From contig CANGHD010000001.1 of assembly GCA_947453525.1 (NCBI GenBank), positions 1-64,000 of the forward strand: a DNA stretch of 64,000 nucleotides. Reading direction: 5' to 3'. Positions within the stretch are counted from its first letter, which is position 1. The number at the start of each line of letters is the position of its first letter. The DNA is from Paracoccaceae bacterium. GTDB lineage: Bacteria; Pseudomonadota; Alphaproteobacteria; Rhodobacterales; Rhodobacteraceae. The position numbers were made by a program, and so were the translations under genes. This document shows, in pieces, positions 827 through 4,515 of this stretch. The notes below the pieces were generated by a model that saw only the letters and a program-made list of their open reading frames with translations, did no database searches and was not told the origin of the DNA.

Positions 827-1186
827 TCAGGCGGCGGGCTGGTCCTTGAACTTGATCGACTCGCCGCAGCCGCAGGCCTCGGCGACGTTGGGGTTGCGGA
901 ACTTGAAGCCGCTTTCCAGAAGGCCGATTTCGTAGTCGATCTCGGTGCCAATCAGGAACATCTGCGCCATGGGAGCGATCAGCACGCGGGCGCCGTCTTG
1001 TTCCACCACTTCGTCCAGCGGATTCACCGATGTGACATAGTCCATCGTATATTCCATGCCGGCACAGCCGCCCTTCTTGACGCCGATCCGCAGGCCCTCG
1101 GAGCCTTTCGTTTGCATCAGGCCCGCGATCTGGCGGGCGGCGTTGGGCGACAGGGTGACGGCGGCTTTGCCGGGGATGCCGAACAT
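827..1186 (-). CDS. HesB/IscA/ErpA-family iron-sulfur cluster assembly accessory protein
   Basis: MFGIPGKAAVTLSPNAARQI...GGCAGMEY...CGCGESI; conserved Cys and CGCG motif. Confidence 0.92.
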   Translation of the reverse strand: MFGIPGKAAVTLSPNAARQIAGLMQTKGSEGLRIGVKKGGCAGMEYTMDYVTSVNPLDEVVEQDGARVLIAPMAQMFLIGTEIDYEIGLLESGFKFRNPNVAEACGCGESIKFKDQPAA

Positions 1187-1209: not shown

Positions 1210-1911
1210 TTAGGGCGTGAGGTCGGGAATTCCAAGCGGGGGCAGGTGGGCCAGTAACGCAGATGTGCCAGCGGCGACGGCTATGGCCCAGAAGACTGAG
1301 GCCAAAGTGCCGATGATGACATATTCTGACAGTTTTCCTTCGTTGCTGACAGCCCCAAAACGCAAGACCGATTTGGCGGCCACCAGATAGCCGATGCCGC
1401 CCGCCTGATCGGTCAGGATCAGGGCAAAGATCAGGCCACGCTCCAAGAGACCGATCATCCGGCCGCCACCGGGCAGGCCTGCGGGGGCAGAGGCGATCCA
1501 AGGCTCCATCAAGAGGCCAACGGCGAAGCCTCCGGCGCGGGTCGACAAGATGGCCCCGGCGGCGAGGGCCATGAGCGGGGCGACAGTGGGGTAGGGCTGC
1601 CAGAGGCCGGGTGGCAGTAGCGGTGCCAGGGCCAGCAGCGTGGCCAGATGGGCGGCCTGATCGACGAGGAAGGGCGCGACGCCGCGTTTGGGCCAGAAGG
1701 ATTTGGCGAGGTCGATGGTGATATGCGCCGCCGTCAGCGCCACAAGCCAAGGCGAGGCGCTGCCGGTGCCGGCGGCAGCGGTGGCCAGAACCGACAGGGC
1801 ATGGACGGACAGGGCGACGGGATGGCGCTTGTGGGCGGCCATCCAGTTGGTTTGCAGGATGAAATCGGCCAGCGCATGGGCGAAAAGCAGGGCTGTGAAG
1901 GCGGCGATCAT
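1210..1911 (-). CDS. DUF3307-family membrane protein
   Basis: 233 aa hydrophobic protein, FTALLFAHALADFILQTNWMA start typical of DUF3307; ends just downstream of the SatD-like gene in the same orientation. Confidence 0.75.
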   Translation of the reverse strand: MIAAFTALLFAHALADFILQTNWMAAHKRHPVALSVHALSVLATAAAGTGSASPWLVALTAAHITIDLAKSFWPKRGVAPFLVDQAAHLATLLALAPLLPPGLWQPYPTVAPLMALAAGAILSTRAGGFAVGLLMEPWIASAPAGLPGGGRMIGLLERGLIFALILTDQAGGIGYLVAAKSVLRFGAVSNEGKLSEYVIIGTLASVFWAIAVAAGTSALLAHLPPLGIPDLTP

Positions 1912-1914
1912 GCG

Positions 1915-2580
1915 TCAGACTCCCGCCACCAGATCCGCGTCGAAGGCGCGAGCCCAATCCTCTGCCGCGGATCGTAGGGTGCGCAGGTTGGCCCCGGCAA
2001 GGCGGTAGTTCACAGCCTGCCGGGAAATCCCCAAGCGCTCCGCCATTTCGGCCAGCGTCGGGTTCTTGGGATGCAGGGCCAGCGCCACGGCCTCGGCCTG
2101 TTCGCGGGTCCAGCCGCACATCAGGGCGTCGGCGAGGCTGGCCAGCGCCTGCTGGAACGGCGTGGCACTGCCGCAGGTGATCCCGAGCCGTTCGGTATGG
2201 TCAAGCCGGTCGAGGCCCTTGCCCGAGGCCGTGAAGGCCGCGCCGCTGGCGTCGGAAAGGTCGGCCGAGCCAAGGCTGGCGACCGGGCCTATGCCGATGG
2301 AGATTCGGGTCGGGATGCCGGTCTTCAGTGCCCGCAGGCCGGCCTGCATCACGAAGGCCGCCCGCAGCGCCTGTGCGGGCCTGCCCAGCACCAACTGCCA
2401 GCCATCGCCGCGCGACCGGGTGAAGCGGCTGTCCGACCCGCCCGGCCACTGGGATATCTGCGCGGCCATGCCGGCGATCTCGCGCATCGCGGCGTCAAGG
2501 GATGCGGTGCCCGCTTCGGTTGAGCCGATCAGGTCACCGGTGAAAACGGCAAAGAGGGGCGGCATGGGGCAAGCCTTCAT
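1915..2580 (-). CDS. SatD-family protein (cyclase-like N-terminal region plus C-terminal HTH)
   Basis: FAVFTGDLIGST...SRGDGWQLVLG...ISIGIGP, then HTH-like TLAEMAERLGISRQAVNYRL. Confidence 0.75.
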   Translation of the reverse strand: MKACPMPPLFAVFTGDLIGSTEAGTASLDAAMREIAGMAAQISQWPGGSDSRFTRSRGDGWQLVLGRPAQALRAAFVMQAGLRALKTGIPTRISIGIGPVASLGSADLSDASGAAFTASGKGLDRLDHTERLGITCGSATPFQQALASLADALMCGWTREQAEAVALALHPKNPTLAEMAERLGISRQAVNYRLAGANLRTLRSAAEDWARAFDADLVAGV

Positions 2581-2671
2581 GCTTGAAATGTGTGACTCAA
2601 GTCCTGCGGCTTGTTGCGGTGAAATTCAAGCAAAAAGGCTTGATATGCAAAAAATCAAGCCAAAAGGCTTG
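2570..2671. promoter_or_regulatory. Array of four 16-bp inverted repeats upstream of and overlapping the satD-like start codon
   Basis: caagccttcatgcttg (2570-2585), caagtcctgcggcttg (2598-2613), caagcaaaaaggcttg (2627-2642), caagccaaaaggcttg (2656-2671). Confidence 0.8.
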
Positions 2672-3043
2672 TCACATGAAGCCGAGTTCCAAGCGGGCTT
2701 CATCCGACATCATCTCCATGCCCCAAGGCGGATCAAAAGTCATCTGCACACGCACTTCCTTGACGCCGGCAACCCCTTCAACGGCCGTTTCAACCCAGCC
2801 CGGCATCTCGCCTGCCACGGGGCAACCGGGGGCGGTCAGGGTCATGTGGATGTCGACAGCGGACTCGTCCGAAATGTCAACTGTATAAACCAGCCCCAGA
2901 TCGAAGATGTTTACCGGAATTTCCGGGTCATAGACCGTGCGGCAGGCATCAACGACAGCCTCGTACAGAGGATGGTCGGTGGTGGAGGGGCGGATCAGGG
3001 GGGTGCCCTCGATCTTGTCCGGCTGCTCGGTCATGGCGCTCAC
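2672..3043 (-). CDS. DUF59/MIP18-family SUF-associated Fe-S assembly protein
   Basis: VVDACRTVYDPEIPVNIFDLGLVY...MTLTAPGCPVAGEMP motifs. Confidence 0.9.
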   Translation of the reverse strand: MSAMTEQPDKIEGTPLIRPSTTDHPLYEAVVDACRTVYDPEIPVNIFDLGLVYTVDISDESAVDIHMTLTAPGCPVAGEMPGWVETAVEGVAGVKEVRVQMTFDPPWGMEMMSDEARLELGFM

Positions 3044-3969: not shown

Positions 3970-4515
3970 ATGATCGGCAAAGAGCTTTTGACAAGCACCA
4001 TGCTGCGACCGGGGGTCTGGCCGGTGGTCGGCCTGATCGTCGTGCAGGCGATCTGTACGGTGATCTTCATGGGCGATGTGGCCACGGACATCATCCCGCA
4101 AGGTTTTGGTGCCCTGACCAACCCTTCCAACGTGTCCGAGATTGCTGCCTCGTCCGGGCTGATCCTTGGGCTGGTGTTCGAGGTGATCGTGCTCTGGCGG
4201 CTTTTGGGACGCCAGCACCGGATGCAGCAGAGCCTGAGCGTGGCCACGGGCGCGCTGTCGGACCTGATGGAGGGCTATTTCCGGACTTGGGCGCTGACGC
4301 CGACGGAAGCGGATGTGGCGGCCTTCACCATCAAGGGCTATTCGATTGCCGAGATCGCCGCGTTTCGCGGGTCTGCCGAGGGCACGATCAAGACTCACCT
4401 GAATGCGATCTATCGCAAGTCGGGCACCGCAGGACGGGCGCAACTGGTGTCGGTTCTGGTCGAGGACCTGTTTCGCGGCGCGCTGGTGGGTCGTGATGCG
4501 GGTGCCAAGGCCTGA
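3970..4515 (+). CDS. LuxR-type HTH regulator with N-terminal transmembrane segments
   Basis: Two hydrophobic helices, then LTPTEADVAAFTIKGYSIAEIAAFRGSAEGTIKTHLNAIYRKSG. Confidence 0.85.
   Translation: MIGKELLTSTMLRPGVWPVVGLIVVQAICTVIFMGDVATDIIPQGFGALTNPSNVSEIAASSGLILGLVFEVIVLWRLLGRQHRMQQSLSVATGALSDLMEGYFRTWALTPTEADVAAFTIKGYSIAEIAAFRGSAEGTIKTHLNAIYRKSGTAGRAQLVSVLVEDLFRGALVGRDAGAKA

Follow-up and report, generated by a model that had tools for sequence, protein, structure and literature searches.

The four tandem palindromes upstream of a satD-like gene in the Paracoccaceae window (the whole stretch of 64,000 nucleotides that was analysed) are very probably the operators of the satD-like protein itself, which would read them with its own helix–turn–helix (HTH) motif and keep the satD–DUF3307 unit under negative autoregulation, with its N-domain as the sensor. 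This reading is drawn from sequence comparison: the bases of the operators vary in step with the DNA-reading part of the protein in more than 100 related genomes.

The genes around the array follow the order ssb, sufT-like, array, satD-like, DUF3307 and sufA-like on the minus strand. The upstream neighbour is a sufT-like FeS_assembly_P (DUF59) gene (2672..3043, minus strand), which the array does not require. Beyond ssb, on the opposite strand, a gene for a LuxR-type (GerE) regulator, the N-terminal part of which is hydrophobic, is found (3970–4515, plus strand). The satD-like gene (1915..2565, minus strand) encodes a regulator of 216 aa that consists of a class III nucleotidyl-cyclase-like N-domain (residues 1–150; 2116..2565, minus strand), containing the metal aspartates D11 and D54, and a C-terminal HTH, the recognition helix of which (residues 181–190, SRQAVNYRLA; 1996..2025, minus strand) covaries with the operator half-site. 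Its downstream partner encodes a DUF3307 membrane protein (1210..1911, minus strand; Pfam PF11750, E=4e-13), and a sufA-like Fe-S_biosyn gene (827..1183, minus strand) comes next.

An ATG at 2580 sits within the first site. As this codon reads ATT in the nearest relative (locus L016), and homologues of the satD-like protein begin M-PPLFAV, which corresponds to window position 2565, the gene probably starts at 2565 and not at 2580. The whole array then lies upstream of the gene and ends 3–4 nt before the start codon. The intergenic gap with this start is 106 bp, and not the 91 bp of the original prediction, in which the array had also been taken to run into the start codon.

The array is formed from four CAAG-N8-CTTG 16-mers that begin at 2570, 2598, 2627 and 2656, with start-to-start spacing of 28, 29 and 29 bp, exactly as the four 16-bp inverted repeats had been described. 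The CAAG/CTTG arms are present in each, but the pairing inside them is imperfect (5–6 of 8 arm positions pair), and relatives show a natural operator unit of 18 bp, which extends the 16-mer by one base at either end. On this definition the promoter-proximal site 1 spans 2569..2586 (16-mer 2570–2585), site 2 spans 2597..2614 (2598–2613), site 3 spans 2626..2643 (2627–2642) and site 4, which abuts the sufT stop codon, spans 2655..2672 (2656–2671). A step of 28–29 bp is about 2.7 helical turns, so that consecutive sites do not share one face of the DNA.

Such an arrangement is not expected by chance. The 64-kb window contains six CAAG-N8-CTTG matches against 0.91 expected, a number reached in none of 100 dinucleotide shuffles. 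Similarly, no chain of at least two sites at 27–31 bp was formed in 300 mononucleotide shuffles of the window, which itself contains a chain of four. The single-site pattern is uninformative when 2 mismatches are allowed, giving 604 matches in the genome. The genome-wide scan called for in the original prediction places the tandem pattern at this locus only, as a pattern search of the 4.0-Mb assembly found no second occurrence; the reversed control gave 0.

A relative search with the single satD-like protein returned one near relative only. Nine other loci of the genus have the same gene order as far as their contigs extend, and nearly all contain 2–4 palindromes in the sufT–satD gap, with diverged spacers; in one (L023) only single palindromes were called. 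In another sufT–satD gap (L026) about ten tandem CGGGCTT copies form a heptanucleotide microsatellite directly upstream of the array. Five genomes of the genus carry sufT and sufA without an intact satD or DUF3307, and there the gap of about 110–145 bp contains no array. Across the family, 66 of 298 sampled genomes, over 65 genera, carry a satD homologue, and more family genomes were added later; this patchy distribution fits repeated loss or transfer. Comparable arrays of 2–5 sites, 28–30 bp apart, precede most of the Rhodobacteraceae homologues. A strict dyad threshold (at least 6/7) missed most of these arrays, and relaxed and consensus-guided callers were used instead. Among 74 loci, pattern-free chains of 18-bp dyads at 28–30 bp with at least three sites numbered 23 against 0.27 expected, and chains of at least two sites numbered 57 against about 6. 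The caller for the first set was guided by the consensus at half-site positions 2–6, leaving position 1 out, and found at least two sites in most loci. The array is kept at 11 loci where the upstream gene is not sufT. In 20 further genomes (groups of 8 and 12) the strict tandem-pair pattern was matched in 13, only ever beside satD, and had no match in the other 7; the reversed control was again 0. It is this comparison that shows the array to belong to satD. The operators lie in the promoter region of the regulator's gene and reappear along with that gene, as in a multi-operator autoregulatory HTH repressor. What is conserved upstream of the orthologues is the architecture, while the sequence co-evolves, so that the lack of conservation named in the original prediction as a refuting outcome did not occur.

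The DNA sequence of the sites follows that of the recognition helix. In a scan of 200 protein columns over 109 loci, scored by adjusted R2, the best column was residue 182 for half-site position 1 (0.79), residue 183 for position 2, residue 184 for position 4, and residue 187 for both position 5 (0.84) and position 6; position 3 is almost always A. The best-scoring helix residues are therefore collinear with the half-site positions. For position 1, Arg182 goes with G, Gln182 with A, and Pro, Thr, Lys or Ala with T. Gln183 goes with C at position 2, and Lys187 with C at position 5. This rule was read from the first 67 loci. In the 42 loci fetched after it was set, residue 182 predicts the outer base in 40 and Lys187 predicts C at position 5 in all 42. 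Two loci separate residue 187 from residue 180, since both have Lys180 without Lys187 and both keep G5. Covariation and held-out prediction both point to the HTH of the satD-like protein as the reader of the array. Binding by the adjacent HTH, as first suggested, gains further support from arrays that are unique in their genomes and track satD, and from the absence of arrays where satD is lost.

Spacing differs with the same helix. With Lys187 proteins 39 of 44 intervals are 30 bp, and with the others 111 of 137 are 29 bp. A Lys187 clade (L076, L077, L081–L083, L087, L094, L133, L136, L141, L147, L160, L167 and L172) has GCAACC, GCATCC or GCACCC operators at 30-bp spacing, spacing and specificity having shifted together. 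In clades with an altered helix (e.g. VTKQTIQ, LTQQSVQ and SRQMVQK) the array is lost, and no array could be recognised at about 20 loci whose helices have diverged. The altered-helix loci that lack arrays are L075, L093, L146, L148–L150, L153, L164, L168, L169, L171, L173–L175, L178 and L181. In many of these a CTTGCACTTG...CAGCATGG stretch recurs and the ATG is preceded by a GAGGGGCC-type leader, which suggests a different promoter layout. The window protein is itself an exception to the rule, having Arg182 but a mixed T/A/G outer base. On a tree of the N-domain about six changes fall at residue 182, about six at position 1 and two at residue 187, too few for a formal sign test, and shared ancestry also gives high scores to some N-domain columns (e.g. 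R87 with position 5, 0.73). The strength of the covariation therefore lies in its site-specific, collinear pattern and in the held-out prediction, and not in a count of independent events.

The rule linking residues 182 and 187 to the operator holds largely in other Pseudomonadota. For homologues carried by plasmids or second replicons in Vibrio, Salinivibrio and Pseudoalteromonas, the palindromes upstream of satD are different (TTAGCC..., GTAACC...) and repeat at 28 bp, and DUF3307 is annotated next to satD in Vibrio and Salinivibrio, the Pseudoalteromonas records being unannotated there. Sampling across the phylum added 15 loci from outside the family, each of them with DUF3307 downstream. 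In other orders and classes ATAGCC is found with Gln182 and Lys187, GTAACC with Arg182 and Lys187, TTAGCC with Thr182 and Lys187, and GCAAGC with Arg182 and Gln183. Residue 182 agrees with position 1 in 9 of the 10 remote arrays that were read automatically with confidence; for the tenth (L198) the register chosen was wrong, and an alternative one, read by hand, agrees. Gln182 occurs with A in at least three lineages (L078; L199, L203 and L206; and L210, the last read by hand). The automated choice of register is ambiguous in remote loci because tandem palindromes also form palindromes between sites, and in several remote loci besides L198 arrays were picked up only weakly or not at all.

The position of the array relative to the gene suggests how binding would act. 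In 72 loci the proximal site ends 0–4 nt before the start codon, and ATAT or TTAT centres are typical of this site only, the distal sites having TTTT or AAAA. In the same loci the next site has a TTG, mostly 16–17 bp upstream of the -10, and the distance from the -10 to the ATG is most often 6 nt. Applied to the window, the 17-bp rule of the family places a putative -35 (TTGAGT, 2595..2600, minus strand), weak in the window itself, the TTG of which is given by the minus-strand CTTG arm of site 2. The candidate -10 (AAGGCT, 2572..2577, minus strand), 6 nt from the ATG, is also weak; L016 has TAAGGC one base off, and many relatives have ATAT or TTAT. As the window -10 is weak, the promoter step rests on the family comparison, which predicts that sites 1 and 2 overlie a promoter and that the satD mRNA is leaderless. 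With the proximal site on the -10 and the next on the -35, binding should repress the satD promoter, and autorepression is the best reading at the level of the family.

In the proposed mechanism one dimer would bind each 18-bp site, and neighbouring dimers, 28–30 bp apart from centre to centre (about 2.7–2.9 turns), would wind round the DNA. Occupancy of site 1 over the -10 and of site 2 reaching the -35 would block RNA polymerase and give negative autoregulation of the satD–DUF3307 unit, in which the DUF3307 membrane protein would be the regulated product of interest. Neighbouring dimers likely touch each other, because sites 3 and 4 are not needed to occlude the promoter yet keep the same spacing. 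The N-domain would most likely act as a nucleotide- or metal-binding sensor that relieves or strengthens DNA binding.

The sensor role is suggested by the sequence and predicted fold of the N-domain. Its profile aligns with Ma1120 over about 100 residues (E 4.8e-4), and all 24 PDB matches with E<=0.001 in a Foldseek search with a low-confidence model are class III cyclases. The AlphaFold model, built from two sequences with a low pLDDT of 48, served for the order of secondary structure and as a weak Foldseek query. The metal ligands Asp11 and Asp54 are kept in 159 of 160 homologue rows, so that the fold, from a low-confidence model, and both metal aspartates of a class III cyclase are present. 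The transition-state Asn/Arg pair is not: position 112, placed by hand, is Val, Thr, Glu, Ile etc., Asn not being among the common residues, and position 116, in the same hand-placed motif, is Arg in 86 of 160 rows. With the cyclase fold and metal aspartates kept and the catalytic Asn missing, the N-domain is a probable ligand-binding pseudocyclase sensor. The original label 'SatD-like' is only a distant one: the window protein gives no match to PF16264 (Pfam SatD) above the curated cut-off, the window genome as a whole gives none, and 4 of 73 homologues match weakly (best E 0.004).

Of the 141 Rhodobacteraceae loci, 138 have DUF3307 downstream of satD; among the remaining three, the L073 contig stops at satD and L126 offers only 92 bp of sequence beyond the gene. 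No match to DUF3307 was found in phage records or among the PADLOC defence models, and no publication on a satD–DUF3307 system was found in the literature searched for SatD, DUF3307 and cyclase–HTH regulators. On a Sphingomonas insulae plasmid (L185, 2259–5621) the pair adjoins a Pycsar effector, an adenylate/guanylate cyclase-domain gene and a TIR-domain gene, a setting that is defence-island-like; no array was seen there. It is unlikely, though conceivable, that satD–DUF3307 forms a mobile module of its own, serving in stress or against phage, in which the pseudocyclase factor would sense a nucleotide through its metal site, assemble cooperatively as a helix on the array and release the DUF3307 effector when the signal changes.

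Binding by the satD-like protein could also activate the promoter, or do both depending on occupancy or ligand state. The distal sites reach about 100 bp upstream of the start codon and the class III cyclase-like domain suggests ligand control, but a proximal site on the -10 followed by one on the -35 is the classical layout of steric repression, which makes activation distinctly unlikely. The array could instead be bound by a different dimeric regulator, such as an Fe-S or stress regulator of the nearby suf genes. Its operon neighbours are sufT and sufA, and suf genes are often under Fe-S regulators. The operator bases track the recognition helix of the satD-like protein, however, and the array is unique in the genome, is kept without sufT and is missing where satD and DUF3307 are missing though sufT and sufA remain, all of which leaves this explanation very improbable.

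Equally improbable is a role for the repeats as RNA hairpins (a terminator, attenuator or leader structure) in a sufT–satD transcript. The minus-strand RNA does fold better than shuffles (z -4.0), but so would any inverted repeat, and site 4 with its T-run resembles a terminator, yet L016 has no T-run. The predicted transcription start at the ATG lies downstream of the array, and RNA stems would not covary with HTH residues; on these grounds the terminator or hairpin reading was rejected.

An autorepressing operator array would belong to a known kind, for which HipB of E. coli offers a close parallel in layout. HipB, an HTH dimer, binds four palindromic operators cooperatively and so represses the two-gene unit to which it belongs; the operator consensus, TATCC-N8-GGATA, resembles the CAAG-N8-CTTG of the array in layout (PMC3376134). 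However, HipB is a small antitoxin whose partner is a kinase toxin, whereas the satD-like protein is an HTH fused to a cyclase-like domain with a DUF3307 membrane partner. With the class III cyclases (Ma1120, Rv1900c and Cya2) the N-domain shares its profile match and both metal aspartates; unlike them, the satD-like protein is without the transition-state Asn and is fused to an HTH. Pycsar pairs a class III cyclase-type protein with a membrane protein (PMC11224242). satD–DUF3307 likewise joins a cyclase-type to a membrane protein and, by association only, adjoins the annotated Pycsar effector in S. insulae. Unlike Pycsar, satD has an HTH and a probably inactive cyclase site; the catalytic Asn is missing and DUF3307 is without a PADLOC match, where Pycsar has an active pyrimidine cyclase and a cyclic-nucleotide-gated effector.

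The gene pair itself, the cyclase-like domain as sensor and an operator code that can be read are the new elements here. Two uncharacterised genes, one for DUF3307 and one for an HTH protein that carries a cyclase-like domain, would become a defined regulatory unit with operators, a protein–DNA code and a ligand hypothesis, in which two residues of the recognition helix predict operator letters across classes of Pseudomonadota. The family may thus provide a clean system for the co-evolution of repressor and operator, and for asking why the 28–30 bp spacing holds as the sequence drifts.
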